From Fodinisporobacter ferrooxydans (GTDB lineage: Bacteria; Bacillota; Bacilli; Tumebacillales; MYW30-H2), in the NCBI RefSeq assembly GCF_022818495.1, contig NZ_CP089291.1, forward strand, positions 4,419,501 through 4,483,500: a stretch of DNA of 64,000 nucleotides, given 5' to 3'. Below are positions 34,238 through 53,223 of the stretch, one piece after another. How positions within the stretch are numbered: the stretch's first letter is position 1; each line of letters begins with the position of its first letter. The notes under the pieces were generated by a model, which worked only from the letters and a program-made list of their open reading frames with translations, did no database searches and had not been told where the DNA came from. A program made the position numbers and the translations under genes.

Positions 34238-35068
34238 TCACATACTGATTTCCGTTTTTCGCTCCATTGCGGAACGTATTTCATATGCGCCGGATGTTGC
34301 GATAACAATACACACAATCGCAATAGGAAGCCAAATGGCTTGTAAATACCAATGATGTACGAAGACTCCACAAATCGCTGCTCCAATGCCGTAAAACACG
34401 ATCACCGCAATCCACATGACAATCGATGCGATGGACGTTGCATTTCCTTTTTTTCCGAATACTGGGTCGCGCTTGTGAGATGAAGAAGAAGTGGATAAAC
34501 GCGAATCCTCAAATTTCCATACCAATGTTTCTACCAATCCTGTCAGTGTACTTGTAATAACCGTAGTTGTGACACCGTTCACTCCAATTCTTCTCGCCGT
34601 AATCCCTTGTACCCCCATCGCAAAAGCCAGGAGGAAAAGCAAAACATCCGCCATGGCTCCTTGCGCCTTGATATTTGACATGGCTAGAACAATACCGGCA
34701 AACAAAACGAGTGCGGCCAATTCCACACAGAGGGAAGCGGTTATCGTCCGGTTCCATCCGGTTCTATCCTGAATACGACGTAAGATTACGGCACCTGCCG
34801 CCGCTCCCACGATAAACCCCAGCAATGCCACCGCATACCCAAAGACAGACATTCCGTGTGTATTCACAACCGCTAACCCGAACAATACTGTATTTCCGGT
34901 CATTGCCGCCGTAAACACTTGCCCGAGGGCAAGAAAACCAATAGCGTCCACACAACCGGAAGTCATGGTCAGCAGCACCAGCAATACATTGCTCATCGTT
35001 CTCGACAATTTTATCAACTCTTTCACAAAATCTTTCACTTTACTATATCTGTTTACTATATCTTTCAC
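34238..35068 (-). CDS. DUF1275 (YoaK-family) membrane protein
   Basis: This six-to-seven-helix membrane protein of unknown function begins its core at VLLVLLTMTSGCVDAIGFLALG. The family motif MTGNTVLFGLAV and the ARRIGVNGVTTTVITSTLTGLVE segment near residue 165 are seen. A charged insertion (SRLSTSSSSHKRDP) interrupts the later part. The start is uncertain: GTG 35068 lies in a stretch of repeated AGTGAAAGAT units, while ATG 34996 would give a family-typical 252 residues. It follows the creatininase-family gene by 37 bases and may be the last gene of the GntR-controlled operon, possibly as an exporter or importer. Confidence 0.8.
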   Translation of the reverse strand: MKDIVNRYSKVKDFVKELIKLSRTMSNVLLVLLTMTSGCVDAIGFLALGQVFTAAMTGNTVLFGLAVVNTHGMSVFGYAVALLGFIVGAAAGAVILRRIQDRTGWNRTITASLCVELAALVLFAGIVLAMSNIKAQGAMADVLLFLLAFAMGVQGITARRIGVNGVTTTVITSTLTGLVETLVWKFEDSRLSTSSSSHKRDPVFGKKGNATSIASIVMWIAVIVFYGIGAAICGVFVHHWYLQAIWLPIAIVCIVIATSGAYEIRSAMERKTEISM

Positions 35069-35105
35069 TTTGCTCTTTCTTTCACGTTACTCTATCTTTT
35101 GCCTA

Positions 35106-35864
35106 TTAGTTTTCATTGAAATTCAACAGTTGGGAGACAGCTGCAACGATGTTCCCCAATGCTTCTTCCACAATCGCCTGCCCGGCATCGTAACTCGCTT
35201 TTGTGGCATCGCCGATGCATCCATTTGCTGTCATCTCATCGTAAAAATAAGTGCCTTGTACAGCATTGCCGGGTCGCAAAAGCTTCCACTTTCCTTCCTG
35301 AATGTCTCCGGGAGCCAATTGATCTTCTCGAATCAACTGCGGGGCCAGATAGTAAGCTTCCGATACTTCTCGCTCACAGCTATGTCCAAACAGAGTAGAT
35401 TTGACATGTTCTTGTATCGCTTTTTTCGCCGAAGCGGTTGTTTTCGCTAGATAGATTTCTATGCCAAGCTCATGTGTTAACGTAGTACAGGCAACACTCA
35501 ATGTCGATTGGTTGCCTCCGTGTGAATTGACCAGCAAGAATTTTTGAATGCCATGTTGCTTTAACGACCAAACCATATCGCGTATCACTGCAATCAATGT
35601 TTCAGGACGGAATGTTAACGTTCCGGGAAAATGGATATGATGAATCGATACTCCAATTGAAATACTCGGGGTTACTAACACATGCGGATATAACCGTTCT
35701 CCCAGTTTGCGAGAGAACTTATCAGCCAAAACATCATCACAGCTTTCTGTCAAATGAGGACCATGCTGCTCATGTGCCCCGACAGGAATGATGGCAATTT
35801 TTACTGTTTCCAACGCTTGTTTTACTTCAGGCCAAGTCATGTCCGAAAGATGATACATTGCCAC
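35106..35864 (-). CDS. Creatininase-family amidohydrolase
   Basis: This 252-residue protein has the family's metal site: IPVGAHEQHGPHLTESCDDV (Glu, His, Asp), HHIHFPGTLTF, LVNSHGGNQST (His) and GHSCEREVSEAYYLAP (Glu). Members hydrolyse cyclic or linear amides such as creatinine and formamides, or mature peptides (MftE). The GTG start at 35864 follows AAGGGG at seven bases; the internal ATG at 35858 is less well placed. In this operon it could cleave an amide after oxidation by the di-metal enzyme at 38868-39587. That role is inferred. Confidence 0.88.
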   Translation of the reverse strand: MAMYHLSDMTWPEVKQALETVKIAIIPVGAHEQHGPHLTESCDDVLADKFSRKLGERLYPHVLVTPSISIGVSIHHIHFPGTLTFRPETLIAVIRDMVWSLKQHGIQKFLLVNSHGGNQSTLSVACTTLTHELGIEIYLAKTTASAKKAIQEHVKSTLFGHSCEREVSEAYYLAPQLIREDQLAPGDIQEGKWKLLRPGNAVQGTYFYDEMTANGCIGDATKASYDAGQAIVEEALGNIVAAVSQLLNFNEN

Positions 35865-35910
35865 TTCAATACCCCTTCCGACTCTCTAATGTCTTTTTTT
35901 GCTATCCAAT

Positions 35911-36201
35911 TCAGTTTTCCTGCAAAAGTTCAATATCATGCGTAATCCATAATTGGCATGTTAAACGATAGCCATTTTTCAGTTTTTCTTCGCCTAATCG
36001 TTTTACTTCTTTCCAGTTCGGCTCAGGCAAATGTTCTCCGCCAGCCAGAACGCGCGAAACACAGCGGGTGCATCTCCCCATCCCGCATCCATACCGAATC
36101 TGAGGAAACTTCTTGGTTCCTGCCAAAACTACCAAATTACTATTCTCAGGCACCTCTTGTTCATAGATTTGTCCGTTTCGGTGCAACCTGACTTTGGGCA
36201 T
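35911..36201 (-). CDS. [2Fe-2S] ferredoxin (first of a pair)
   Basis: This 96-residue plant-type ferredoxin has a cluster loop YGCGMGRCTRCVSRVLAGG near residues 38-56 and the fourth cysteine in GYRLTCQLW near residue 80. The CxMGxCxxC spacing (three cysteines in the loop) is that of adrenodoxin/plant-type domains. It is a stand-alone electron carrier with no reductase domain. It is adjacent to another ferredoxin of the same type, with 27 bases between them, which suggests a two-step electron supply or a heteromeric oxidase partner. Confidence 0.88.
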   Translation of the reverse strand: MPKVRLHRNGQIYEQEVPENSNLVVLAGTKKFPQIRYGCGMGRCTRCVSRVLAGGEHLPEPNWKEVKRLGEEKLKNGYRLTCQLWITHDIELLQEN

Positions 36202-36228
36202 TGTCCATTCACCTCGAATATTTCGTCT

Positions 36229-36570
36229 TCATTCGGCTTTTCTTTCCCAATACTCTTTCAGTTTTTGCGAGTATTTCACTGTAATATTGGAATCCCAGGA
36301 AACTTCCACATCCCCTTTTGCGAACGTCTGGCATGCCAAGCGATATCCGTTATATACATCCTCACCCAATCGGGCGATTTCCGCTTTTTTAATCGCAGAA
36401 AGATTTTCTGCTCCTTCTTCGATATAAATTTTGCAAGTTCCACATAAACCCCCGCCACACCGGTAGGGGATCCCACCTTCATAACGAATGGATGTCCGCA
36501 GGATATTGGTTTCTTTCCCATCCTCAATCTCAATCGATCGGTTCGAACAGGAAAAATGAATCCTTGCCAT
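36229..36570 (-). CDS. [2Fe-2S] ferredoxin (second of a pair)
   Basis: This 113-residue ferredoxin begins MARIHFSCSNRSIEIEDGKE and has the cluster loop YRCGGGLCGTCKIYIEEGAE with a fourth cysteine in GYRLACQTF. It carries a C-terminal extension (KYSQKLKEYWERKAE) absent from its neighbour. The frame is open to 36591, but GAGGAGG lies about ten bases before ATG 36570. It probably passes electrons to the di-metal oxidase of this operon; no ferredoxin reductase gene is seen nearby. Confidence 0.88.
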   Translation of the reverse strand: MARIHFSCSNRSIEIEDGKETNILRTSIRYEGGIPYRCGGGLCGTCKIYIEEGAENLSAIKKAEIARLGEDVYNGYRLACQTFAKGDVEVSWDSNITVKYSQKLKEYWERKAE

Positions 36571-36648
36571 GACAGACGACCTCCTCGGCATAGTATGCCT
36601 TACATGATTTCCAGATCTTCCTTTTTACAATTGCATTTCACGGTAGAA

Positions 36649-37128
36649 TCAAAATTTTAAATCCGCTTCCGCCATGACCGTATAACCTGCCGGTGCCAGA
36701 GCTTCTTTCAGAGCTGCCAATGCAGCCGTTCCTACAGCCGTATCCTGCTCGCCGTTTCCGCCGCTGATTCCTATGCCGCCAATCACTTCCCCATCGACCA
36801 CTACCGGAAATCCACCGACGAAAATCGCAAATTTGCCTGGAAACATCAGTTGAATCCCGTATGCTTCATTTCCCGGCAATGCCGGCCCTTTGGGTTCCGT
36901 ATTGAACAAATGTGTGGAACGTTTGTGCCCGGCTGCCGTAAAAGCTTTGGCAATCGCAATTTCCGGACCGGTGATTCGCGCCCCATCCATCCGTTCCAAT
37001 GCAATCAAATGTCCGCCGTCATCCACAATCGCAATCGTTTCATTGACTTGGATGTCTGCCGATTTTTTCTTGGCTGCTTCAATCATGATTTTTGCTTCGT
37101 TTAATTCCAGTTTAAGGATTTGTTTCAT
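36649..37128 (-). CDS. GlcG/HbpS-family (DUF336) heme-binding-like protein
   Basis: This 159-residue single-domain protein has AIVDDGGHLIALERMDGARI near residue 35, EIAIAKAFTAAGHKRST, FVGGFPVVVDGEVIGGIGIS and GTAALAALKEAL, all typical of the GlcG/HbpS/PduO C-terminal family. Members bind heme or corrinoids or have unknown roles in catabolic operons such as glc. GGAGGGG precedes ATG 37128. It lies between the aldehyde dehydrogenase and the ferredoxins and probably supports redox chemistry or cofactor handling in the pathway. Confidence 0.87.
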   Translation of the reverse strand: MKQILKLELNEAKIMIEAAKKKSADIQVNETIAIVDDGGHLIALERMDGARITGPEIAIAKAFTAAGHKRSTHLFNTEPKGPALPGNEAYGIQLMFPGKFAIFVGGFPVVVDGEVIGGIGISGGNGEQDTAVGTAALAALKEALAPAGYTVMAEADLKF

Positions 37129-37194
37129 CCCTATCCCCTCCGATTTTTCATCCGTCCTGGGCGCAAAATATCGAAATCTTCAACCGCCCAATCC

Positions 37195-38658
37195 TCAATA
37201 TCCAAAATAAACCGTTTTTGTTTGTGTGAAAAATTCCAATCCCACACGCCCGGACTCTCGAAATGTTGATGTGCTTGACTTTTTCAACCCGCCAAATGGC
37301 GCATGCATGAGATTTCCGGTCGTTGTGCGATTGACCTTCACCGTTCCGGATTGAATCTCCTTGACAAAGGTTTGCGCTTTTTCCAAATCCTTTGTCACGA
37401 TCGACGCAGACAATCCATATGCCACACCATTGGCGACTTGCAATGCGTCGTTGAAACTGTCAACCGCAATCACAGCAATGACAGGGCCAAATATTTCTTC
37501 CTGGGCGATTCGCATATGTGAAGCAACGCCTGTAAAGATGGCTGGTTTGACATAATATCCTTTGCCATATTCATTTTCGGTTAGGCGATCACCGCCATAG
37601 ACCAAATTTGCCCCTTCTTCCCGGCCAATCGCCACATATTCCAGAACCGTATCCAACTGACTTTGGTTAGCCAAGGGCCCCACCTGAACTCCTTCAGCAA
37701 AACCGTTCCCGATCTTCAGACGGCTTGTTTGATCAACCAGCTTTGCAACAAATTCATCATGGACGTTTCTCATGACAATGACACGACTGGTTCCCGTACA
37801 CGCTTGCCCGGTGAGTTCGAAACCGCCTTTGATCGTCAATTCAACCGCTTTGTCCAAATCTGCATCCTCCATGACAAGAATCGGATTTTTTCCCCCAAGT
37901 TCCATTTGCATTCTTGTCGTAAGGGAAACCTGCCGATGAATCGCTTCACCCGCTTGCGTAGACCCGGTAAATGTAATTCCGCGGATGGCAGCATCTGTAA
38001 CGAGCGGGGTTCCGACTTTTGCCGCAGACCCGGTAATAAAATTGAATACACCTGCCGGAATGCCGGCATCCGCAAGCGCTTCGGTCAATCGCAATCCCAT
38101 TAGCGGCGTTTCCGAGGCCGGTTTAAATACGACGGTGTTGCCTGTCATCAGTGCCGGAGCGATCTTTCTGGCCGGTATGGAGAGAGGAAAATTCCAAGGG
38201 GTGATCACCGCTATCACACCTAAAGGTTCCCGAACTGTGAACACCATAGAGGCAGGATCGTCGTTTGCAAATGTTTCGCCGCTAAAGCTCAAACCTTCTA
38301 CCGCATAATACCGCAACGTCGCGGCGGAACGTTTCACTTCCAGGCGGCTGGCCGACAGTACTTTTCCTTCTTCCCTCGTCAACTCATGAGCAATTTCTTC
38401 GCATCGGCTTTCCAAAATATCTGCCGCTTGGTTCAGAATAGCGGCACGTTTCGATGGAGACGTCTTTGCCCAGGCCGGAAACGTTTTCTCGGCAGCACGG
38501 ATGGCACGAATCGCGTCTTCTGCCGTAGACGCCTGAAAACACCCGACAATATCTTCCCGATCAGCAGGATTCATGCTGTGAAATACGTTCCCATCAGAAG
38601 AATCAACCCACTGCCCATCGATATAATTCTTGTACGCCGTCACTTGAACTCCGATCAC
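37195..38658 (-). CDS. NAD(P)-dependent aldehyde dehydrogenase (2-oxoglutarate-semialdehyde-dehydrogenase-like)
   Basis: This 487-residue enzyme shows KNYIDGQWVDSSDG, the PWNFPLSIPARKIAPALMTG segment, FTGSTQAGEAIH, general-base glutamate in ELGGKNPILV near residue 260 and catalytic cysteine in TGQACTGTSRVIV near 295. It ends APFGGLKKSSTSTFRESGRV. Sequence feel is closest to Bacillus YcbD-type 2-oxoglutarate semialdehyde dehydrogenases, so a dicarboxylic semialdehyde is a fair guess. GTG 38658 has AGGTG before it; GTG 38643, preceded by GGAG, is an alternative. It is separated from the di-metal oxidase gene upstream by 209 bases with a strong hairpin. Confidence 0.9.
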   Translation of the reverse strand: MIGVQVTAYKNYIDGQWVDSSDGNVFHSMNPADREDIVGCFQASTAEDAIRAIRAAEKTFPAWAKTSPSKRAAILNQAADILESRCEEIAHELTREEGKVLSASRLEVKRSAATLRYYAVEGLSFSGETFANDDPASMVFTVREPLGVIAVITPWNFPLSIPARKIAPALMTGNTVVFKPASETPLMGLRLTEALADAGIPAGVFNFITGSAAKVGTPLVTDAAIRGITFTGSTQAGEAIHRQVSLTTRMQMELGGKNPILVMEDADLDKAVELTIKGGFELTGQACTGTSRVIVMRNVHDEFVAKLVDQTSRLKIGNGFAEGVQVGPLANQSQLDTVLEYVAIGREEGANLVYGGDRLTENEYGKGYYVKPAIFTGVASHMRIAQEEIFGPVIAVIAVDSFNDALQVANGVAYGLSASIVTKDLEKAQTFVKEIQSGTVKVNRTTTGNLMHAPFGGLKKSSTSTFRESGRVGLEFFTQTKTVYFGY

Positions 38659-38755
38659 AATTTCACCTGCTTTACGTGGTATCGACGATTCGATTCTATG
38701 CGTTCATTCCCGTATATTCACACACTTGTCTTTTCACACGCCGGTTCTTTCGTAC

Positions 38756-38788
38756 ACCGGCAGTTTCCTTCATCAAAAAACTGCCGGT
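38756..38788. terminator. Strong hairpin between the di-metal oxidase and aldehyde dehydrogenase genes
   Basis: A perfect 11-bp stem (ACCGGCAGTTT with AAACTGCCGGT) is followed on the plus strand by TTTTTGTTTTTTC, a full terminator for rightward transcription. Both flanking genes run leftward, where no U-run follows. In the operon mRNA it would act as a stabilising or processing hairpin. The 209-base gap (38659-38867) holds no gene. Confidence 0.65.
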
Positions 38789-38867
38789 TTTTGTTTTTTC
38801 AATTCCCATTTTGCAAATCGTTGCTGTTGCATGATTGCGTAGTTGTACTTGCGAGCCGCAATTGCAA

Positions 38868-39587
38868 TCAGGCGTTAATACTTTCCAAATCTGGCTGCAC
38901 GTACGTACGGTATAGACCGTCCATATACATCCATCTCATTTTGGCGCCAGTACGAACAACTTCCAGACAACGTTGTTGCAGTTCAGGAGTATTGGCATAA
39001 TCGAGTACAATTTGGAATCCGCGCTCTCCGTGGATCTCGTCAGACACGATATGAAGATCGAAGAATTCCACTTCCTCATCTGTGAAACGATAGGTTTCTT
39101 TGAGCGGCGGCAATTGTTTGCGATAAATATCCGGCACCTGTGATTCAAGGCCGACAATCAATGCGGCAGTCGCAACCACAAAGTGTTCACGAAACGCTAT
39201 AGCATAGCACCAACTTTGCAGACCTAACGTTGTCGGACACATGTTGGCAGGATCTGTTACCCGCTCACCTGTTGTCCCGCATGCTTCTGCGAATCGAATC
39301 AACAAATCGGTGTGACGGGTTTCGGCAATTTCTTCTTCATACATATTTTGCAGGATAAAGTCTTTGGCATCTGTGTTAGCATCTGGTATATTCGCATAAA
39401 TGTAAGCGAGATAATCTGCAAATGGACCTACATAGTGGTAATGATTTTCTGCCCAACGAGCAAAATGTTCGCGTTTTAATTGTCCGTTTGCCCAAGCAAG
39501 GCTAAATGGAGCTACTGCACTGTGCTTGCCTTTGATCGCTTCTTCCAACTGGTTACGAAATTCATCACGGGATAATAATTCTGCCAT
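38868..39587 (-). CDS. Heme-oxygenase-fold di-metal oxidase (PqqC/CADD/TenA-like)
   Basis: This 239-residue all-helical protein carries the complete ligand set of the heme-oxygenase-like di-metal oxidases: E85-x6-H92 (EEIAETRH), E148 (VGLESQ) and H179-x3-D183-x2-H186 (HIVSDEIH). The spacing equals that known for CADD. Such enzymes use two iron or iron/manganese atoms and O2 for oxidative C-C or C-N cleavage, N-oxygenation or decarboxylation; PqqC-type relatives lack the metal site. A perfect AAAGGAGG lies before ATG 39587. It is the first gene of the operon holding two ferredoxins and an aldehyde dehydrogenase, and its promoter region has two GntR operators. It is likely the key oxidative enzyme; the substrate is unknown. 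Confidence 0.85.
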   Translation of the reverse strand: MAELLSRDEFRNQLEEAIKGKHSAVAPFSLAWANGQLKREHFARWAENHYHYVGPFADYLAYIYANIPDANTDAKDFILQNMYEEEIAETRHTDLLIRFAEACGTTGERVTDPANMCPTTLGLQSWCYAIAFREHFVVATAALIVGLESQVPDIYRKQLPPLKETYRFTDEEVEFFDLHIVSDEIHGERGFQIVLDYANTPELQQRCLEVVRTGAKMRWMYMDGLYRTYVQPDLESINA

Positions 39588-39630
39588 TTTAATCTCCTCC
39601 TTTTTTAGGGCCGGCATCTCGCTTTCAATC

Positions 39631-39643
39631 GTATATTGTATAC
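39631..39643. promoter_or_regulatory. GntR operator GTATATTGTATAC, 44 bases before the di-metal oxidase gene
   Basis: Arms GTATA and TATAC flank a TTG centre. It lies just downstream of a possible minus-strand -10 TATAAT (39646-39651), where a bound regulator would block initiation or elongation. Confidence 0.7.
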
Positions 39644-39718
39644 CGATTATACTTGTTAAAACTTCGAGTACCCTTCCCTTTGCTCATTTCTCTTTCTTGT
39701 ATTACTCTATTTTTTATC

Positions 39719-39733
39719 GGTATATTGTATACC
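39719..39733. promoter_or_regulatory. GntR operator GGTATATTGTATACC (di-metal oxidase operon, upstream copy)
   Basis: Fifteen bases with 6-bp inverted arms; the reverse complement is identical to the site at 40883-40897. It lies 89 bases upstream of the copy at 39631. Confidence 0.78.
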
Positions 39734-39851
39734 AAATATGATGATTAAATATTACAAATATTAAAATAATAAGTCAACCACTTTTTTCATAAATTTTTCA
39801 TATATTACGCCTTACGCCGAATTGACTGCAGGAAGCCGCACGTAGATAAAA

Positions 39852-39881
39852 AAATAAAGGCGGAGATTCCAGCCTTTATTT
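39852..39881 (-). terminator. Terminator overlapping the end of the gntR gene at 39876
   Basis: AAATAAAGGC (39852-39861) pairs with GCCTTTATTT (39872-39881), and seven T residues follow in the leftward direction. The right arm includes the gntR stop codon. Confidence 0.85.
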
Positions 39882-40544
39882 ATATGTCTCCAAATATGAC
39901 TTTTTTGAATTTTCGATATGAACCTTCATCAGGCTTTCCGCCAGTTCGATTTCGCCATTTCTTACAGCCTTGGCAATTTCGAGATGTTCCTTAAGCACCT
40001 GTTGTCTTCTCCCGGGCAATTCATGGCTGACATTCGCAAACGCTCGGATATAATCATATAAACTGCTGATCATTTCATACAACTTAGGGCTGCCGGCCTC
40101 TTTGATAATCGTGTCAATGATGTAAATATGAAACTGTTCGTTGTCTTCTGCCTGATTATCGCCGGATACTACTTGATTGATCTCCGAAATCAACAAATCT
40201 AATCGAGATCCATGCCCCTCATTGATTCTTTGTGCAGCTAATTTAACAGCCAATCCCTCTAAAACAGACAGGATTGTAAAAATCTCGATGATTTCACCCG
40301 GGGACATTTGGGAAACGATTACACCTTTTCTGGGAAGTGTTTTAACAAATCCTTGTGACTCGAGACGAAACAACGCTTCGCGAATCGGTGTGCGGCTGAT
40401 ATTCAATTTTTCGGACAAATCCCGCTCCACTATCCGCTCTCCGGCTTTTAATTCGCCATCGATGATCGCCTGTTTGATATATTGGTAAACCTTATCCCGG
40501 ATGGGACTTAATTCGTCTTTGTCCCATTGGTTTTGATCATTCAT
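39876..40544 (-). CDS. GntR-family regulator (FadR/FCD type) of the oxidase-transporter regulon
   Basis: This 222-residue regulator has a winged helix (VYQYIKQAIIDGELKAGERI, LSEKLNISRTPIREALFRLE, GFVKTLPRKGVIVSQMS). A helical FCD ligand domain follows, with metal-site residues suggested by NEQFHIYIID and the C-terminal EHLEIAKAVRNGEIE. AAGGAG precedes ATG 40544. It lies between the two divergent catabolic operons, and GTATA-TTG-TATAC palindromes occur before all three units of the region and upstream of itself. FCD regulators usually bind carboxylates, so the inducer may be an acidic substrate or intermediate (inference). Confidence 0.92.
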   Translation of the reverse strand: MNDQNQWDKDELSPIRDKVYQYIKQAIIDGELKAGERIVERDLSEKLNISRTPIREALFRLESQGFVKTLPRKGVIVSQMSPGEIIEIFTILSVLEGLAVKLAAQRINEGHGSRLDLLISEINQVVSGDNQAEDNEQFHIYIIDTIIKEAGSPKLYEMISSLYDYIRAFANVSHELPGRRQQVLKEHLEIAKAVRNGEIELAESLMKVHIENSKKSYLETYK

Positions 40545-40690
40545 TTTTTTACTCCTTCCTCTGATTGGTCCGCAAATTCCAGTCCTCGATGACGAGCAAA
40601 AAGAATCCCTGATACATCAGGAAATTCTGTATGCTTTGCCCGATTGATGTCTGTGCCAAAAATAAAGCCTGCAATATTTCTTTCAAATGA
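40541..40690 (-). pseudogene. Startless coding-like frame upstream of gntR
   Basis: The leftward frame from 40690 reads SFERNIAGFIFGTDINRAKH, then TEFPDVSGILFARHRGLEFA and DQSEEGVKK to a TGA that overlaps the gntR ATG. It is protein-like and open for over 70 codons back to a stop near 40759, but contains no ATG, GTG or TTG. It is probably the tail of a lost gene formerly coupled to gntR. The family is not recognised. Confidence 0.35.
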
Positions 40691-40705
40691 CGTTAGAATG
40701 TCTAT

Positions 40706-40720
40706 AGTATATTGTATACT
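40706..40720. promoter_or_regulatory. GntR operator AGTATATTGTATACT upstream of gntR
   Basis: Inverted arms extend to ATAGTATA and TATACTAT (40704-40722). The site lies 162 bases before the gntR start and would permit autoregulation. Confidence 0.72.
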
Positions 40721-40861
40721 ATTCTTTCTTTCATTTCCAGATCTTTGCCTTGTTACTTGTTATACTCACCACCATCCGAATCTTACTCACCATCCTCCCA
40801 ATCCTACTACAAATTTGCGCACATATACTTCATTTCTTTCAATTGACCGTACGTTCCACCT

Positions 40862-40890
40862 TTGATACAATGACTTTAATTTGGTATACA
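40862..40890 (+). promoter_or_regulatory. Promoter of the aspartate-dehydrogenase-like operon
   Basis: TTGATA (40862-40867), a 17-base spacer and TATACA (40885-40890) form a good sigma-A promoter 30 bases before the gene. The -10 box lies inside the GntR operator at 40883-40897. Confidence 0.75.
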
Positions 40891-40897
40891 ATATACC
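40883..40897. promoter_or_regulatory. GntR operator GGTATACAATATACC over the -10 box
   Basis: This is the reverse complement of the site at 39719-39733. Its overlap with the -10 element implies repression when the regulator is bound. Confidence 0.8.
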
Positions 40898-40918
40898 TAT
40901 TATAAAAGGAGGAGTACC

Positions 40919-41719
40919 ATGCTTACAGTTGGCATCATCGGCTATGGAAGTATTGGTAGAGATGTTTCGAATTATATCGTTACGGATCGTGCAGGAAACG
41001 TTGAATTGCAGGCAATATTGGTAAGAGATAGGAAACAAATAGCCTCCCATTTGCCCGCTCCTCTTTTTGAAGATCAAGCGGATCGCTTCTTTGCTCGCGG
41101 ATTCGATATCGTTGTCGAAGCGGCCGGTCATAATGCGGTAAAACAGTTTGCAGAACGTTCGCTGCGCGGCGGAAGTGATTTTATTGCAGTAAGTGTCGGA
41201 GCGTTTGCCGATCGCGAATTATATGAAAAAACCCTTAAAATTGCCGCAGAGACGGGAAAACGTTTAATTATTCCTTCCGCTTCCATCGGCGGGCTGGATC
41301 GAATTGCTGCCGCAGCCGTGGGAACGATCGAACACGTTACATTAACTTCCAAAAAACCCCCACGGGCATGGTATGGCACGATTGTTGAGCAGCGCATCGA
41401 TTTGGAACAAGTCACGGAGCCTGTTTGTGTATTTGAAGGTCCTGCAAGGGAATCGGCGCTTCTTTTCCCGGAAAGCATCAACGTTTCTGCTGCCTTGAGC
41501 CTAGCCGGTATCGGTTTTGATAAAACGAGCGTACGTGTATTTATCGATCCGACTGTAAGCAAAAATACGCATCACATTTCCGCATCCGGAAGTTTTGGAG
41601 AAATTCAACTGGAATTGAGCAATATACCGTCAGCCAATCCCAAAACTGGCTATATTACGGCAATGAGCATTGCCAAGGTCTTGAAAAATCTTTCCACTCC
41701 TTTGATGATTGGGTTATAG
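40919..41719 (+). CDS. Aspartate-dehydrogenase-like (NadX-family) amino-acid dehydrogenase
   Basis: This 266-residue NAD(P)-dependent enzyme has an N-terminal Rossmann motif VGIIGYGSIGRDVSNYI, VVEAAGHNAVKQFAE and SVGAFADRELYE. The C-terminal catalytic domain has PSASIGGLDRIAAAAVG, ESINVSAALSLAGIGFDKT, SKNTHHISASGSFG (active-site His) and the family end SNIPSANPKTGYITAMSIAK. Aspartate dehydrogenases interconvert L-aspartate and iminosuccinate/oxaloacetate plus ammonia. Here no nadA or nadC is adjacent and the promoter is controlled by the catabolic GntR. A role in releasing or fixing ammonia from a pathway amino acid is therefore more likely than NAD synthesis. AAGGAGGAG precedes the ATG. Confidence 0.88.
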   Translation: MLTVGIIGYGSIGRDVSNYIVTDRAGNVELQAILVRDRKQIASHLPAPLFEDQADRFFARGFDIVVEAAGHNAVKQFAERSLRGGSDFIAVSVGAFADRELYEKTLKIAAETGKRLIIPSASIGGLDRIAAAAVGTIEHVTLTSKKPPRAWYGTIVEQRIDLEQVTEPVCVFEGPARESALLFPESINVSAALSLAGIGFDKTSVRVFIDPTVSKNTHHISASGSFGEIQLELSNIPSANPKTGYITAMSIAKVLKNLSTPLMIGL

Positions 41720-41786
41720 AATCTATCTTGTTCTTGGAAACGGCAAAGAATCTATGACTGACAATACCAGAAAAGAAGGTATGATA

Positions 41787-43208
41787 ATGAAAGATTCTTA
41801 TTCCCGTCTGCTGAATCGTATTTACATCATCACGATCTCCTTTTATTTGCTGACGATCCTTTTGCCTAACCCCAATTGGTTTCACAACGTGATTTCGATT
41901 CTGACAATTCTCTGTTTGCTCGTTTCCATTCCCGTTGCGAGCATGCTTGTGAAATGGATCAGTATTCTTTTTTTGCTGGGAGGAAGTATTCTGGTATTTT
42001 CTCATGGCGGCTCCTTTTCCTCCATGTACCTCCTTTTTGGAAAAATGCTCGATTTATTGACACTCTTTACACTCATTCCATGTATGGCAATCCCGATTCA
42101 GATCGGGAACTACTCCCCGTCCATTCTGCAATTGATTTCTCGCTATTCGGGAGACGAGCAAAAGTTTTATCATGCAATCACTCTGATTGGGTATGCATTG
42201 GCAAGCATCATGAATCTGGCCGCTCTGCCGATGACCTATTACAGCATTCAGCCGGCATTAAAAAAGTTTTATATTCAAAATGAGGACCGATTTTTGTCGA
42301 CCAGCATTACCCGGGGGTTTGCCATGCCATTAGTTTGGAGTCCGGTAGCCGCCATAGTCGGGGCTGTCGTACAGATCACCCATGCCGGCTGGTTTTGGAT
42401 TTTGCCCTTTAGCTTGCTGCTTAGCGCCATCGGTATTGCGCTCGGATTGTTGTTCTCACCAAGGAAGTCCAACTCATCTCTGGAAGCGTCTGCCGCCTCT
42501 ACCAGTCATGCGGTTGAGACAGTCAAAGCCGATCCAATCGCCGAGGCTGCTGCAAACCCGGTATTGAAATTAGGCCAAATGGGACTTGGCATTCTCTTAT
42601 TTGCCATCCTGATGACCGGTTTGCAGCAGATGGAATCTTTATCGATTGTATCCGCTGTATCAATTCTCGCTCTTCCCTTTTCCTTCGTGTGGGCAGTTTT
42701 TTTACGGAAACAAAAGCAATTTATACAATCCGGAAAAAAACAACTATCTCAATTGGCAAACATGCAGGATCAGTTTGCCGTTTTTTTATGTGCCGGATTT
42801 TTTGTGGATGCACTTCAGATGTCCGGGGTAGCTCCAAGCATCGATCAATTCTTGGTGCATGTGAGTCACCGAATTGGCACTGCCTGGTTTTTAATGTTGA
42901 TTCCGCTGATTCCTGTATTCCTTTCTCTTGTGGGCATGCATCCGCTTGTTTCGATCGCATTGCTTGGCGAATCCCTGGATCCCAGAATGATCGGCATTCG
43001 TCCGGAATGGGTAGCTGTCGCTTTTCTCGGAGGAGGTGTTACAACCTTTCTTCTGAGTCCTTTCAATGCAACATTGACCATTATGAGCGGAATCATGAAA
43101 CGGAGTCCCTTTGAACTTGCGAAATGGAATCTTCCCTTTTGCGCTCTCTATCTTGTGACTGTAATCCTGCTTGTATCATTTTTAAATCTGTTTTGGCCAC
43201 ATGGATAG
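41787..43208 (+). CDS. Polytopic membrane protein, probable transporter
   Basis: This 473-residue integral membrane protein has about 11-12 hydrophobic segments (for example IYIITISFYLLTILL, GLGILLFAILMTGL, FLMLIPLIPVFLSLVG) and a cytoplasmic linker rich in Ala/Ser near residues 230-270. The final third (GMHPLVSIALLGESL, FLGGGVTTFLLSPFNATLTI) resembles helix-break regions of ion-coupled carboxylate transporters, but I cannot assign a family. An open frame begins at 41709, overlapping the dehydrogenase. AGAAGG seven bases before ATG 41787 favours that start, with ATG 41781 as an alternative. Being second in the GntR-controlled operon, it may import or export a pathway compound. Confidence 0.75.
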   Translation: MKDSYSRLLNRIYIITISFYLLTILLPNPNWFHNVISILTILCLLVSIPVASMLVKWISILFLLGGSILVFSHGGSFSSMYLLFGKMLDLLTLFTLIPCMAIPIQIGNYSPSILQLISRYSGDEQKFYHAITLIGYALASIMNLAALPMTYYSIQPALKKFYIQNEDRFLSTSITRGFAMPLVWSPVAAIVGAVVQITHAGWFWILPFSLLLSAIGIALGLLFSPRKSNSSLEASAASTSHAVETVKADPIAEAAANPVLKLGQMGLGILLFAILMTGLQQMESLSIVSAVSILALPFSFVWAVFLRKQKQFIQSGKKQLSQLANMQDQFAVFLCAGFFVDALQMSGVAPSIDQFLVHVSHRIGTAWFLMLIPLIPVFLSLVGMHPLVSIALLGESLDPRMIGIRPEWVAVAFLGGGVTTFLLSPFNATLTIMSGIMKRSPFELAKWNLPFCALYLVTVILLVSFLNLFWPHG

Positions 43209-43248
43209 ACGAAAACACCCTCCGATCATTCGAAGGGTGTTTTCGTCT
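43207..43248. terminator. Terminator after the membrane protein gene
   Basis: A perfect 15-bp stem (43207-43221 with 43234-43248) with a 12-base loop starts at the stop codon of the membrane protein gene, between converging units. Confidence 0.85.
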
Positions 43249-43333
43249 GGATAAAAATTTTTCCAGGATCCGTAGCGATAGGCACCGATTGCAGGGGATG
43301 GCACGAGTATTTATTGGCAATTGCCTATGCCTG

Positions 43334-44167
43334 CTATAGCCCCTCGCTGCGTTTTGTCTTTTCCACCTCTTGCTTGAGCATCCCCCATATTTCGTTGAAT
43401 AACTCCTGGAAACGGGGACTGTTTCGAACTTCCTCGATGCGCCGGGGCCTGGGCAAATCAATCTTGAATGAGCATTTGATCGTTCCCGGATGTGCGGTCA
43501 TCACCACGATCCGATCGGCCAGAAAAATCGCTTCATCGATACTATGTGTAATGAAGGCAACTGTTTTTCGGCTTTCTTCCCAAATACGTACAAGTTCTTG
43601 CTGAAGGATGATACGGTTTTGTTCGTCAAGCGCTGCAAATGGCTCATCCATGAGAAGAATCTCCGGATCGTTGGCAAACGCCCGTGCGACGCTGACCCGC
43701 TGTTTCATTCCCCCGGACAATTGGTGCGGATAGGAATTCGCGAATTTTGTGAGGCCTGTTTTGGCAAGAAAATGATTCACAGTTTCTTCTACTTGTCTTT
43801 TGGGTACCTTGCGCATATTGAGACCGTACGCAATATTTTTCTTTACAGTCATCCATGGAAATACGGCGTGCTCCTGAAATACCATCGAGTTCAGCGGTTT
43901 ATTTACATTGTGATGAATCATGTTCATGCTGCCTGTGGAGGGCTGCTCCAGTTGTGCCAGAATGCGAAGAAGTGTTGTTTTTCCACACCCGCTTGGCCCT
44001 ACGATACATACAAACTCTCCTTCTGCTATCGCAAGATCCACATGTTCCACGGCCGTAACGATATTTTTTTTCACCTTGAATTGCTTTCCAATGCCTTGCA
44101 GAACGATCTTGTTGACTTTGGGCTGCAGTATCTCGATTCTATTCAGGTTTTCCATCGGCAAACTCAT
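43334..44167 (-). CDS. NitT/TauT-family ABC transporter ATPase
   Basis: This 277-residue single ATPase domain shows Walker A GPSGCGKTTLLRIL near residue 58, Q-loop MVFQEHAVFPWMTV, signature LSGGMKQRVSVARAFA and Walker B ILLMDEPFAALDEQ with the H-loop FITHSIDEAI. These are the features of SsuB/TauB/NrtD-type importers of sulfonates, nitrate, cyanate, thiamine precursors and aromatic acids. GGAGG precedes ATG 44167. It is the last gene of the binding protein-permease-permease-ATPase operon. Confidence 0.93.
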   Translation of the reverse strand: MSLPMENLNRIEILQPKVNKIVLQGIGKQFKVKKNIVTAVEHVDLAIAEGEFVCIVGPSGCGKTTLLRILAQLEQPSTGSMNMIHHNVNKPLNSMVFQEHAVFPWMTVKKNIAYGLNMRKVPKRQVEETVNHFLAKTGLTKFANSYPHQLSGGMKQRVSVARAFANDPEILLMDEPFAALDEQNRIILQQELVRIWEESRKTVAFITHSIDEAIFLADRIVVMTAHPGTIKCSFKIDLPRPRRIEEVRNSPRFQELFNEIWGMLKQEVEKTKRSEGL

Positions 44168-44183
44168 TGGACATCCTCCTTAT

Positions 44184-45011
44184 TCATTTTCTCTTCCAAG
44201 GAACGACCAGCATTTCTATCTCATCGACGAGTATGCTGAATATGTAGCCGAGTGCAGACATGAGGACGAAGGATACGAACATCGTAGACATGTCGTACAC
44301 TTCATACGACATCCAAATGCGATATCCGATCCCAGACTGTGCACCGACCATCTCCGCTGCAACGATCAGAAGCAGCGCTTCGGCGACTCCGATTTTAAGA
44401 CCGGTAAAAATCATGGGAATGGATCCGGGGATCGCCACTGTACGGTAATACTCCAGTTTTGATGCGCCGAAATTTTTCGCCACATCCAGATAACGTGAAT
44501 CCAGTTCCAAAACACCCGCAGCTGTGTTTATGAGCACAGGATAAACGACGCCAAGAGCGATAAGCACGATCTTTTCCGTTTCACCAAGTCCAAAAATAAT
44601 CATTAAAAGAGGCATGATAGCCAGTTTTGGAATGGGGTATGTGGTGTAGACTATGGGCTCAATCAAAGCGCGCATGAATGGAAACAACCCCACGCTGAGC
44701 CCAAGGACCACGCCGGGAACCGCACCGAATACAAATCCTAATGCAATCCGGTATAAACTGGTTTTGATATCTTCGACGAGGACTCCTGAAGCAAGATGAC
44801 TGATCATTGTTGATACAATGGTGGTTGGCGTCGGAAAGTCTTTTACATTGATCCAATGAAGAATGCCAAGGATCTGCCAGATGAGGAGGAGCAAAATTGG
44901 CGATCCGACAGCAAGAAGACGTCTGCGCTGGACGGGGTTTAATCCGAGTTTCAGGTTTTCGATCTGTGTACCGTTCACGGTAACAACCTTTGTGACTTGA
45001 AGTGTTGACAT
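44184..45011 (-). CDS. NitT/TauT-family ABC permease 2
   Basis: This 275-residue permease has about six membrane helices and the EAA loop DVAKNFGASKLEYYRTVAIP near residue 190 that docks on the ATPase. Its N-terminus MSTLQVTKVVTVNGTQIENL closely matches the neighbouring permease, and the two align over their whole length at 275 residues each, so they arose by tandem duplication. AGGAGG precedes ATG 45011. It lies 14 bases after its paralogue. Confidence 0.92.
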   Translation of the reverse strand: MSTLQVTKVVTVNGTQIENLKLGLNPVQRRRLLAVGSPILLLLIWQILGILHWINVKDFPTPTTIVSTMISHLASGVLVEDIKTSLYRIALGFVFGAVPGVVLGLSVGLFPFMRALIEPIVYTTYPIPKLAIMPLLMIIFGLGETEKIVLIALGVVYPVLINTAAGVLELDSRYLDVAKNFGASKLEYYRTVAIPGSIPMIFTGLKIGVAEALLLIVAAEMVGAQSGIGYRIWMSYEVYDMSTMFVSFVLMSALGYIFSILVDEIEMLVVPWKRK

Positions 45012-45025
45012 GTTTTATCGCCTCC

Positions 45026-45853
45026 TCACCGCTGTTTCCAAGGAATCAGCCGCACTTCCACTTCATCTACAAGTACAGTCGCAATATATCCAAGTAGTGC
45101 CAATAACCCGAAAGATACAAACATCGTCGTAATATCAAAAAGGTCATAGGAAGTCCAAATTCGATATCCGATTCCGGCAGAAGCTCCATGCATTTCGGCA
45201 GCAACCAACAGCAGGACTGCCATGCCAATGCCGAGGCGAAGTCCTGTAAAGATCATGCTGAGTGATCCGGGAATCGCCACTGTGCAGTAATAATTGAACT
45301 TGGAAGCGCCAAAGTTCTTTGCAACATCCATATATCGTTTATCCAGATTCAAAACACCCGCGGCTGTATTGATGACAACAGGGAAGATTACACCGAGCAT
45401 AATGACGATGACCTTTTCTTTTTCCCCAAGTCCGAAAATCAGCATGATCAGCGGCATCAATGCCAGTTTTGGAATCGGATAAAGGGTTGCGACGATGGGT
45501 TCAAAAATCGCTCGCACAATCGGAAAAAGGCCCATGCTGAGTCCGAGAATAACACCAGGGACTGCTCCGGCAAAGAAACCGAGAATGACACGCAACATGC
45601 TTGATTTTAAATCGATGGCGATTTGTCCCGTGGCAATTGCCTTTATATACGCTTGAACAATGGTACTGGGGGCGGGGAAGAACATGGCATTCAGAACACC
45701 GATTCGAACGAGAAGCTCCCAGATCACCAAAAGGACGATGGGGGAAATGACCATCATCAACCGTTTGCGCTGCTTTTCAGTCATAGTTGCTTTCACTGTT
45801 TCGATTTCGGTACCCGTGACAGTAACAATTCTTGACGCCTGAATGGTCGACAC
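45026..45853 (-). CDS. NitT/TauT-family ABC permease 1
   Basis: This 275-residue permease is paralogous to the gene downstream, with the EAA loop DVAKNFGASKFNYYCTVAIP and GAVPGVILGLSMGLFPIVRA. The open frame extends to 45952, but alignment with the paralogue (VSTIQASRIVTVTG versus MSTLQVTKVVTVNG) and an AAAGGAGG site place the start at GTG 45853. Two different permeases would form a heterodimeric channel, unusual for this family, where a homodimer is common. Confidence 0.92.
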   Translation of the reverse strand: MSTIQASRIVTVTGTEIETVKATMTEKQRKRLMMVISPIVLLVIWELLVRIGVLNAMFFPAPSTIVQAYIKAIATGQIAIDLKSSMLRVILGFFAGAVPGVILGLSMGLFPIVRAIFEPIVATLYPIPKLALMPLIMLIFGLGEKEKVIVIMLGVIFPVVINTAAGVLNLDKRYMDVAKNFGASKFNYYCTVAIPGSLSMIFTGLRLGIGMAVLLLVAAEMHGASAGIGYRIWTSYDLFDITTMFVSFGLLALLGYIATVLVDEVEVRLIPWKQR

Positions 45854-45878
45854 ACAACATCCTCCTTTACAATCCTCG

Positions 45879-45912
45879 AAAAGGAAAGGGGATGCTCCCC
45901 CCTTCCTTTTTT
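45879..45912 (-). terminator. Intercistronic hairpin after the binding-protein gene
   Basis: AAGGAAAGGGG pairs with CCCCTTCCTT in the 70-base gap between binding-protein and permease genes, with T runs on both sides. In the leftward direction TTTTCG follows the stem. It probably gives partial termination or mRNA protection so the binding protein is made in excess. Confidence 0.55.
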
Positions 45913-45923
45913 TTCTTCTTAAT

Positions 45924-47033
45924 TTATTTCTGAGGTTTTTGGTATTTTCCAAGTTTTTTCAAGGCATAATCGGCATAGGATGGATCGACCAGATTATCAA
46001 CATTGGTTTTCTTCTTCACCATGCCTTGTGCGGCATACCAGTTTTGATCGTTGACTACGCCATCTTTCGGAATCTGACCGTTCGGATCAAGAAAAGGAGG
46101 ATTCATTTTTTGGTACGTCTTGGGGTCATTGACAAACGTTTCTTTGGTGAGAATTTTGATAATCTTATCTCTATCTTTGTTTCCATAAATGATGGCATCG
46201 TCATAAGCACGTACGCCTTGAAGATATGCGACCATGAATCGATTGCCAAGATCTTTGTTATCTACGAGTTTTTTACCATATGCAATGGTAGAAATCTCTT
46301 CATCAGGCGCATAATCTTTTGGATTTTTCCACCAGGAATAAACACCTTGATCGACACCGCTGGTAATGAGAGGTTCAATTTGCACTGCCGCATCCATCGC
46401 GCCCGTTTTCACACCCGTTAACAAATCCGGAAACGAATCGACGATGACTTCCTTGACGTCTTTTGTGGTTAGTCCACCTTTTTCAAGCGCTTTGCTCAGA
46501 AACATTTCATTGATGGAACCTTTGGAGGCAATTCCTACTTTCAAACCTTTCAGATCTTTGTAATCTTTTACTTTGTTTGCAAGTTTTTTGCTGACAACAA
46601 GCGCAAAATACGGTTTGTCAGGCAGATTCTGCCCACCATCAGCAGCGAGCCGGATTGGTACACCTCTGGCGGCAGCGTTGAACAGGCCTGCACTGATGAC
46701 CGTTCTGGCCACATCGATTTGACCGGAAGCCAATGAAGTCAGCATATCCGCTCCAGAAGCGAATTTCTCGTAATCGACTTTGATCCCCTGTTTTTGAAAA
46801 TATCCGAGTTTCATTCCAAGAATGAGTCCAGCTTCCGCCGGAGCGTTATCCATGGCAACTTTCACAACGGTGAGTTTGCCATTGCCATTTCCGCTGCCGT
46901 TATCTGCAGATGCTGATGCTGATTTCGATCCCCCGGCAGTTGATGTTCCACAACCTGCAAGAATGAGAGATACTGCCATGCCTGTTGTGAAAAGTCCGAC
47001 TCCAACTTTCTTTGATGGTTTCCATGCCAACAT
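45924..47033 (-). CDS. NitT/TauT-family ABC substrate-binding lipoprotein
   Basis: This 369-residue lipoprotein has signal WKPSKKVGVGLFTTGMAVSL, lipobox LAGC (cysteine near 27) and a Ser/Gly/Asn-rich linker. The fold is NMT1/SsuA-like: VAMDNAPAEAGLILGMKLGY, SGADMLTSLASGQIDVART, KDLKGLKVGIASKGSINEMF and GVKTGAMDAAVQIEPLIT. GGAGG lies six bases before ATG 47033; the longer open frame to 47186 has no such site and reaches the operators. Ligands of this class include sulfonates, nitrate, pyrimidines, and aromatic or heterocyclic acids. The promoter region carries two GntR operators, tying uptake to the oxidase operon. Confidence 0.9.
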   Translation of the reverse strand: MLAWKPSKKVGVGLFTTGMAVSLILAGCGTSTAGGSKSASASADNGSGNGNGKLTVVKVAMDNAPAEAGLILGMKLGYFQKQGIKVDYEKFASGADMLTSLASGQIDVARTVISAGLFNAAARGVPIRLAADGGQNLPDKPYFALVVSKKLANKVKDYKDLKGLKVGIASKGSINEMFLSKALEKGGLTTKDVKEVIVDSFPDLLTGVKTGAMDAAVQIEPLITSGVDQGVYSWWKNPKDYAPDEEISTIAYGKKLVDNKDLGNRFMVAYLQGVRAYDDAIIYGNKDRDKIIKILTKETFVNDPKTYQKMNPPFLDPNGQIPKDGVVNDQNWYAAQGMVKKKTNVDNLVDPSYADYALKKLGKYQKPQK

Positions 47034-47168
47034 ACATTCCTCCCAATGCTGAAGTAAGAGTTCAATCAGTGATTGATGTCGGGAAATCAGGTGAGTGATG
47101 CTGCGAAAGCAATCTACCTCCTTGCGGTGAATCTGATGGGATTGGGAGAGCCATTGTAAAATGTCAAA

Positions 47169-47184
47169 TTGTATTTTGTATACC
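47169..47184. promoter_or_regulatory. GntR operator TTGTATTTTGTATACC (ABC importer, proximal)
   Basis: It shares TTGTATACC with the sites at 39719-39733. An identical 16-base copy lies at 47391-47406. It is 136 bases before the binding-protein start. Confidence 0.65.
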
Positions 47185-47390
47185 AAAAATGGTTCTTAAA
47201 TCAGACTATATAGTACAAATGAGCTATTGTAAAATTCCGTATTATCTGAAAATGGACAAAATTTGTTCGAAATTATATCGTAATCTATGTATATCTCATA
47301 AATTCATGAAATTATTATAATATAATAATGTATCTTAACTAAAATTCCGTTTATTTTATCAATCTTTTCACAAGGCTGCATAAAAATGTA

Positions 47391-47406
47391 TTGTATTTTG
47401 TATACC
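47391..47406. promoter_or_regulatory. GntR operator TTGTATTTTGTATACC (ABC importer, distal)
   Basis: An exact copy of the 47169-47184 site, 222 bases further upstream. The stretch between them is very AT-rich and holds no gene. Confidence 0.62.
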
Positions 47407-47445
47407 GAATTACATTCCGTACGCCAATCATTTATCCGACAAAAC

Positions 47446-52756: not shown

Positions 52757-53223
52757 CATTTCCTCCTTAAGTTAACATATCTTTTTTTGCAAGTTTTTAA
52801 TTCAATTAGAAGTTGATCGTCACAATTATCGAATTGTTTTTGACAATAAAACTGCCTTTCTTCCTGAGAAGTAAAAACTCAATATTGTAATCCCTTACAT
52901 GCAGCGCTTTCAAGAAATACTCGATTCGGCGAACCAAAAGACATGTTATGTCAGATTGCTTCAACGATTGTTATTCTATAATTGTGAATCAGCACACTAT
53001 AATTAGTGTCTTTTTGGTATCTTACTATGCAACAAAGTAAATGACTAGAAGTAGATACAGCATAGTATTACATAATATGGAATGTAAAAATATTAAAATT
53101 TCATTTTGCAATTCTAATCGGGAATGGTTTAGCAATGACTACCCCACTCTCATACTATCCCTCCTTTTTTTGAACAATTAAAATCTCTCCAACCATTCTC
53201 TTTGTGCTCCTGTATACTTGATT
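52757..53223 (-). other. Long leader of the MFS gene, with a four-codon mini-frame and a possible cre site
   Basis: Between the promoter and the transporter start lie AAAGGAGGGATAGT followed by ATG AGA GTG GGG TAG (53139-53153), a strong ribosome site with only four sense codons. Further down is ATGCAGCGCTTTCA (52899-52912), which matches a CcpA cre core on the minus strand (TGAAAGCGCT). The mini-frame may be a leader peptide or the scar of a deleted gene. Confidence 0.4.

Follow-up and report, generated by a model that had tools for sequence, protein, structure and literature searches.

A predicted FCD-type GntR regulon around a haem-oxygenase-like di-metal oxidase in Fodinisporobacter ferrooxydans, probably serving the breakdown of a nitrogen-containing organic anion

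The well-studied haem-oxygenase-like di-metal oxidases (HDOs) are biosynthetic enzymes (PMC13108848, PMC13232832), and one of them, CADD, consumes its own Tyr27 and Lys152 (PMC11965152). The subject of the present analysis is an HDO gene and its neighbours in a stretch of 64,000 nucleotides from Fodinisporobacter ferrooxydans (hereafter the window: positions 4419501-4483500 of the 4.86-Mb genome). CADD, or 4-aminobenzoate synthase (TIGR04305), resembles the window HDO in fold (TMt 0.87) and in its six metal ligands, and belongs to its nearest sequence relatives in the PDB; it differs in that the window protein lacks the sacrificial Tyr and Lys and has genes for ferredoxins, an aldehyde dehydrogenase (ALDH) and importers, rather than folate genes, as its neighbours. 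UndA, BesC, SznF, AetD and PolF share the superfamily fold (UndA and BesC were recovered by Foldseek), but act in natural-product or fatty-acid biosynthesis. To our knowledge, no HDO is known with dedicated plant-type ferredoxins at the heart of a catabolic regulon.

GntR-controlled catabolic regulons as such are of a known kind. Rieske and di-iron oxygenase systems with BenC-type reductases, e.g., the glycine betaine monooxygenase GbcAB, are similar to this locus in that a [2Fe-2S] protein and an NAD(P)H reductase feed an oxygenase within an inducible catabolic operon; here, however, the oxygenase is an HDO, and the ferredoxins stand alone in most Bacillota. The degradation of ethylenediaminetetraacetate or ethylenediamine disuccinate (EDTA/EDDS) and of histamine/imidazole-acetate combines an oxidative attack beside nitrogen with the hydrolysis of an amide or formyl group and an outflow of aspartate or C4 compounds, to which the pathway proposed below can be likened, but the oxygenases of these routes are LLM flavin enzymes and imidazole-acetate monooxygenase. 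No marker genes common to these routes and the cluster were found. The open-licence literature that was searched yielded no description of the pathway, and nothing relevant on HDOs in combination with creatininase, ferredoxin or chromate transporter.

We consider it probable, though by no means assured, that the genes described here constitute one GntR (FCD) regulon through which a nitrogen-containing organic anion is taken up and oxidatively degraded. Four transcription units are involved. The first (39617-34238 of the window, minus strand) runs from the HDO gene (38868..39617; 249 aa; PF14518, 1e-34), whose conserved start is probably the ATG at 39587, through genes for ALDH (37195..38658; PF00171, 2e-167), a GlcG/HbpS-like (DUF336) protein (36649..37128; PF03928, 1e-35), the ferredoxins Fd1 (36229..36591; PF00111, 6e-11) and Fd2 (35911..36201; PF00111, 6e-8) and a creatininase-family amidohydrolase (35106..35864; PF02633, 3.5e-61) to a DUF1275 membrane protein (34238..35068; PF06912, 7e-38). 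Both ferredoxins possess the CX4CX2C...C motif and the Fer2 domain of the plant-type [2Fe-2S] class. The second unit is gntR on its own (39876..40544, minus strand; PF00392 and PF07729). On the plus strand, the third unit (40919-43208) encodes an L-aspartate dehydrogenase-like enzyme of the NadX family (AspDH, 40919..41719) and a 499-aa membrane protein (41709..43208), probably a permease of an unnamed family, which has zero matches in Pfam or NCBIfam. The fourth unit (47033-43334, minus strand) encodes an ABC importer. The gene identities proposed in a sequence-only reading of the locus agree with the Pfam and NCBIfam assignments (DUF1275, Creatininase, two Fer2, HbpS/GlcG, Aldedh, Haem_oxygenas_2, GntR plus FCD, AspDH, and an SsuA-type ABC importer).

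The same reading had placed six related operators before these units, and all of them are present in the DNA. For a non-circular test, an 18-bp matrix was trained exclusively on other genomes, using 514 GTATAC-centred sites that precede regulon genes there. Scanned over the window, it ranked precisely these six positions first to sixth, with scores from 14.6 to 24.8 bits; the best match after them reached 10.6 (at 53222), and the six sites scoring at least 12 compare with 0.15 expected under a first-order Markov model. The predicted operators lie upstream of the oxidase unit (proximal, 39632..39649, score 18.9; distal, 39721..39738, 24.8), of gntR (40708..40725, 14.6), of the AspDH gene (40878..40895, 23.7) and of the importer unit (proximal, 47172..47189, 24.1; distal, 47394..47411, 20.5). 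In addition, TTGTATACC occurs five times in the window versus 0.37 expected. The palindrome is centred on GTATAC, with the consensus TATTTGGTATACCAAATA, and such a symmetric core is usual for FCD-type GntR proteins; a winged helix, an FCD domain and this predicted operator mark the regulator as a likely member of that type, and its winged helix-turn-helix, ISRTPIREALFRLESQGFVKT, is identical across the Bacillota relatives. The core GTATA-TTG-TATAC given earlier was set on the wrong axis. The last two sites had looked different because GTATATTGTATAC consists of the GTATAC core with its upstream flank, and the correct axis removes the apparent difference between them and the first four. A promoter scan near the operators of the gntR/oxidase region performed no better than chance.

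Could adjacent genes simply carry operator-like sequences by chance, with no common function? The core is short and AT-rich, and genome-wide TKGTATACMA is found at 51 sites compared to 34 for its reversed control; a genome-wide regulon search by pattern was dropped since chance matches were too many. A single perfect GTATATTGTATAC lies outside the cluster in the whole genome, at 3322323; it falls within a flagellar-cluster reading frame and is regarded as fortuitous. Yet the matrix ranking is six of six, and genes and operators are conserved over 70 loci, with unit-internal genes as a negative control (see below), so that this explanation appears already contradicted by the comparative data and we give it next to no credence.

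The comparative data come from two sets of loci. HDO relatives in the GTDB species collection number at least 482, of which 80 loci were kept (72-83% identity); 70 of these are Bacillota loci with about 10 kb on each side, picked by similarity to the HDO. Within them the neighbours recur with great regularity: a 487-aa permease, ALDH and a creatininase-like hydrolase in 69 loci each, GntR in 68, the 499-aa-type membrane protein and GlcG in 67 each, the two ferredoxins in 65 and 64, an unnamed 113-aa protein in 65, a chromate-transporter-family pair in 64, AspDH in 50, and a P5C-reductase-like protein and RidA in 33 each. Because this set had been chosen by similarity, a second one was added, composed of 12 clusters from genome searches of relatives and of a class sample drawn evenly (399 genomes, of which 19 encode the HDO); it overlaps partly with the first (locus L146 resembles L015). 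ALDH, GlcG, creatininase and GntR are found in all 12 of these clusters, a ferredoxin in 11, AspDH in 10 and DUF1275 in two. The order of the units differs from locus to locus. The proposed co-occurrence of the oxidase with ALDH, GlcG, the paired ferredoxins, the creatininase-like hydrolase, AspDH and the membrane protein is thus borne out in most Bacillota clusters. Farther afield, the oxidase was detected in 2 of 296 Actinomycetota and 1 of 199 Planctomycetota genomes surveyed (centre genome included), and the core of the cluster occurs in rearranged form in Cupriavidus metallidurans CH34 and Caballeronia.

Conservation of the operator, which the sequence-only reading had named as a check, extends in the same way across Bacillota. 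GTATAC within 300 bp upstream of the gene was counted for HDO in 68/70 loci (4.1 expected), for AspDH in 49/50, creatininase in 66/69, the membrane protein in 61/67, Fd2 in 58/64 and Fd1 in 57/65, versus 1/69 for ALDH and 0/67 for GlcG, the unit-internal controls. Sites also precede the genes for the 487-aa permease, the 113-aa protein, and some P5C-reductase-like and RidA proteins. C. metallidurans CH34 and Caballeronia have GTATAC sites within or next to the cluster's intergenic regions; these score lower with the matrix, at best 11.7 and 12.7. By sequence comparison, then, the four units share one predicted operator, which is conserved with most of the genes across Bacillota, while the core extends to Burkholderiales and, more loosely, to Actinomycetota; the claim of a single GntR regulon is strengthened by this pattern.

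The nature of the oxidase bears directly on what such a regulon could do. Foldseek matches the AlphaFold model of the HDO (pLDDT 78) to PqqC and CADD (E 5e-9 to 2e-8), and the modelled structure shows the seven-helix haem-oxygenase-like fold. In an alignment of 34 sequences from Bacillota, Actinomycetota, Burkholderiales and one Pirellula metagenome-assembled genome, which was also aligned to CADD, the residues E95, H102, E158, H189, D193 and H196 are invariant, and the HDO is thereby predicted to carry all six metal ligands (E, H, E, H, D, H) of this class of oxidases. With 4-aminobenzoate synthases and PqqC as nearest solved relatives and a match to TIGR04305, the protein might be taken for a self-sacrificing p-aminobenzoate synthase or a PQQ-synthase-like cofactor enzyme among unrelated neighbours. 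The family scores stay well below the cut-offs (TIGR04305, 97.5 vs. 200 bits; TIGR02111 for PqqC, 56 vs. 240), the sacrificial residues are replaced (Tyr27 aligns with Ser39, and Lys152 with Gln168, a Lys being present at the neighbouring 167), and the neighbours are conserved and co-regulated. Judged from sequence, this interpretation seems already contradicted, and we regard it as very improbable.

For the proposed regulon, the sequence of events could be as follows. GntR would repress the units until the substrate or an intermediate binds to it, and the importer (of NitT/TauT type here, DASS/MleN-like elsewhere) would take up the compound. The HDO, supplied with electrons by the two ferredoxins, would use O2 for cleavage or hydroxylation next to nitrogen, yielding a semialdehyde; the GlcG/DUF336 protein may handle or sense the reactive aldehyde, which ALDH would then convert into a (di)carboxylic acid. 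An amide or lactam would be opened by the creatininase-family hydrolase, and AspDH, together with RidA in relatives, would deaminate aspartate or iminosuccinate, the carbon entering metabolism as a C4 acid. The type of substrate assumed here is tentative, and so is the relative timing of amide opening and oxidation.

The best-supported part of this scheme is the predicted supply of electrons to the HDO by ferredoxins and reductases: a BenC-like NADH reductase gene adjoins the HDO gene in Cupriavidus and Caballeronia, the Actinomycetota clusters contain a ferredoxin reductase and a Rieske ferredoxin, and about ten Bacillota loci have a ferredoxin-NADP-reductase-like gene. The succession of an O2-using enzyme and ALDH is suggestive of an aldehyde intermediate. 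The models nearest to ALDH in NCBIfam are alpha-ketoglutaric semialdehyde and 2,5-dioxovalerate dehydrogenases, both under their cut-offs, and an identification as alpha-ketoglutaric semialdehyde dehydrogenase was rejected (NF042993, 592 vs. 770 bits). The hydrolase slot is occupied by the creatininase-family protein in Bacillota, a GGT-family protein in Actinomycetota and an alpha/beta hydrolase in Caballeronia. The creatininase-family protein itself belongs to the PF02633 fold family, but neither to the true creatininases, i.e., creatinine amidohydrolases (TIGR04448, 97 vs. 235 bits), nor to MftE (107 vs. 172). AspDH scores above its NCBIfam subfamily cut-off (NF009828, 224.8 vs. 177 bits) and just under that of NadX (TIGR03855, 199.6 vs. 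206.6), with PDB 2dc1 as a relative (4e-39). Its place is taken in Caballeronia by an ornithine-cyclodeaminase-family enzyme that matches alanine dehydrogenase and BhcD, an iminosuccinate reductase; locus L104 also has an enzyme of this family. In L027, a malic-enzyme gene (L027:3735-4943 (+)) lies within a regulon unit between Fd1 and a NIF3-like gene. Open reading frames of similar length are present at the corresponding place in L065 and L086. In combination, the dehydrogenase slot and the malic enzyme make aspartate or a C4 acid a likely exit.

The GlcG-like protein opens another possibility, namely that the regulon defends the cell against aldehydes or oxidative stress, with HDO, GlcG and ALDH guarding against reactive carbonyls. 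PDB relatives of the protein include NahX and the formaldehyde sensor EfgA. DUF336 proteins go together with pathways that generate toxic aldehydes, and formaldehyde is a ligand of EfgA (PMC8153426); moreover, Acinetobacter is shielded from desiccation stress by an HDO, DtpC (PMC13232832). Such a function would leave the importers, AspDH, the amidohydrolase slot and the FCD-GntR switch unexplained, and we consider it distinctly improbable. Organic acids are the usual ligands of the FCD-GntR family.

A somewhat more serious competitor, although still unlikely, is the synthesis of a small molecule (a natural product or a cofactor) by the HDO, with transporters that export the product. This would be in line with the biosynthetic roles of studied HDOs (PMC13108848, PMC13232832), and several transporters do occur in the clusters, including MFS efflux-type proteins in Caballeronia and other relatives. 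Among the recurrent genes, however, no ligase, nonribosomal peptide synthetase, polyketide synthase or carrier protein was seen. The parts are instead catabolic (ALDH, AspDH, amidohydrolases, RidA and, in one locus, malic enzyme) and are combined with importers and an inducible-type GntR; in the window genome, the operators stand before an ABC importer and not an exporter.

That importer had been counted as a member of the regulon, which holds only in part. Its genes encode an ATPase (43334..44167), two permeases (44184..45011 and 45026..45952) and an SsuA/NMT1-like substrate-binding lipoprotein (45924..47033; TIGR01728, 77 bits) with the lipoprotein signal LILAGCG, all on the minus strand and assigned to the NitT/TauT type by Pfam/NCBIfam; a start of the last gene listed at 47186 is probably too early. 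An identity as taurine/sulfonate importer was rejected (77 vs. 163.5 bits for the SsuA family, 41 vs. 304 for TauA). Two strong predicted operators precede the unit here, and one (at 19596) belongs to a NitT-type ABC operon in L142 that also contains NIF3-like and MpsC-like genes, whereas the NitT-type operon near the cluster in L094 has none, and most relatives carry the DASS/MleN-like 487-aa permease in place of the ABC importer. It is plausible that the importer represents a local replacement rather than a conserved member. A search of the window genome for the 487-aa permease, run without a positive control, came back empty, which makes for a weak negative. The modelled fold of this permease resembles that of the MleN and DASS carboxylate carriers (VIA Z 23.2, root-mean-square deviation 4.4 and 413 aligned against the MleN model), which belong with TRAP carriers to the ion transporter superfamily; the identity is about 14%, and the permease has no Pfam family. 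On account of this fold, the substrate would probably be an organic anion. DUF1275, likewise counted as a pathway member, lies in the oxidase unit of the window and adjoins or is near the cluster in L145 and L149, but has a relative in just the two sampled clusters mentioned above; it is an optional member.

Several observations weigh against a single conserved catabolic regulon. The window importer is not orthologous to those elsewhere (its substrate-binding protein shares 24% identity with that of L094), AspDH is absent within 10 kb in 20/70 Bacillota loci, and the Actinomycetota clusters have a rearranged, looser gene set with few operator-like sites. Furthermore, the equivalence of the unrelated families in the hydrolase slot is assumed, and the substrate, product and activity in the proposed chemistry are deduced from gene content.

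Further genes accompany the cluster in relatives. The protein of about 113 aa, which has no Pfam match, is preceded by its own operator (e.g., L052:7995-8327 (-) and L098:11087-11437 (-)); in Caballeronia and Cupriavidus, the two ferredoxin genes flank a distant form of it, and no copy was located in the window. The pair of short chromate-transporter-family proteins that is regular in Bacillota (e.g., L052:12923-14043 (+)) is probably concerned with something other than chromate. NIF3-like and MpsC-like genes recur beside the cluster (L094:2869-4469 (-), L142:17576-19452 (-), L015:17537-20157 (+)), twice with a NitT-type importer, and are joined in L015 by a Gate-domain membrane gene. Just upstream of the cluster's permease, L141:1-6087 (+) encodes an Opp/nickel-type ABC permease, two ABC ATPases and an M20 amidohydrolase. 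In two Fictibacillus-type loci, a gene for an NlpC/P60 peptidoglycan hydrolase (L147:1860-3185 (-), L023:16725-18062 (+)) has two strong upstream operators (3270 and 3332 in L147), and in L032 two operator-like sites (16834, 16897) precede a ribose-phosphate pyrophosphokinase-like gene (L032:17183-18127 (+)). An argininosuccinate-lyase paralogue directly upstream of the membrane-protein gene (L147:14931-16442 (-), L023:3603-5111 (+)) might hint at an N-succinyl-type substrate; as a lead towards EDDS it was rejected, being confined to just two Fictibacillus-type loci. Hydroxypyruvate isomerase and tartronate-semialdehyde reductase genes follow RidA in some Cytobacillus loci only, and a glyoxylate route was rejected as a conserved part because sister loci have, at that place, reading frames resembling sensor-kinase, response-regulator and sugar-ABC genes.

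Nearly all characterised HDOs act in biosynthesis, and a co-regulated, widely conserved HDO with dedicated ferredoxins or reductases would point to catabolic HDO chemistry, with electron donors amenable to in vitro reconstitution. The conserved operator would provide a ready reporter, in that compounds relieving GntR repression would name the substrate, and two permease families and the 113-aa protein without a Pfam model would gain a function as well. More tentatively, and with the odds somewhat against so broad a claim, a ferredoxin-driven class of catabolic HDOs may open a widespread route for degrading a nitrogen compound common in soil, such as an N-substituted amino acid or an opine- or chelator-like acid, under an operator conserved from Bacillota to Burkholderiales.

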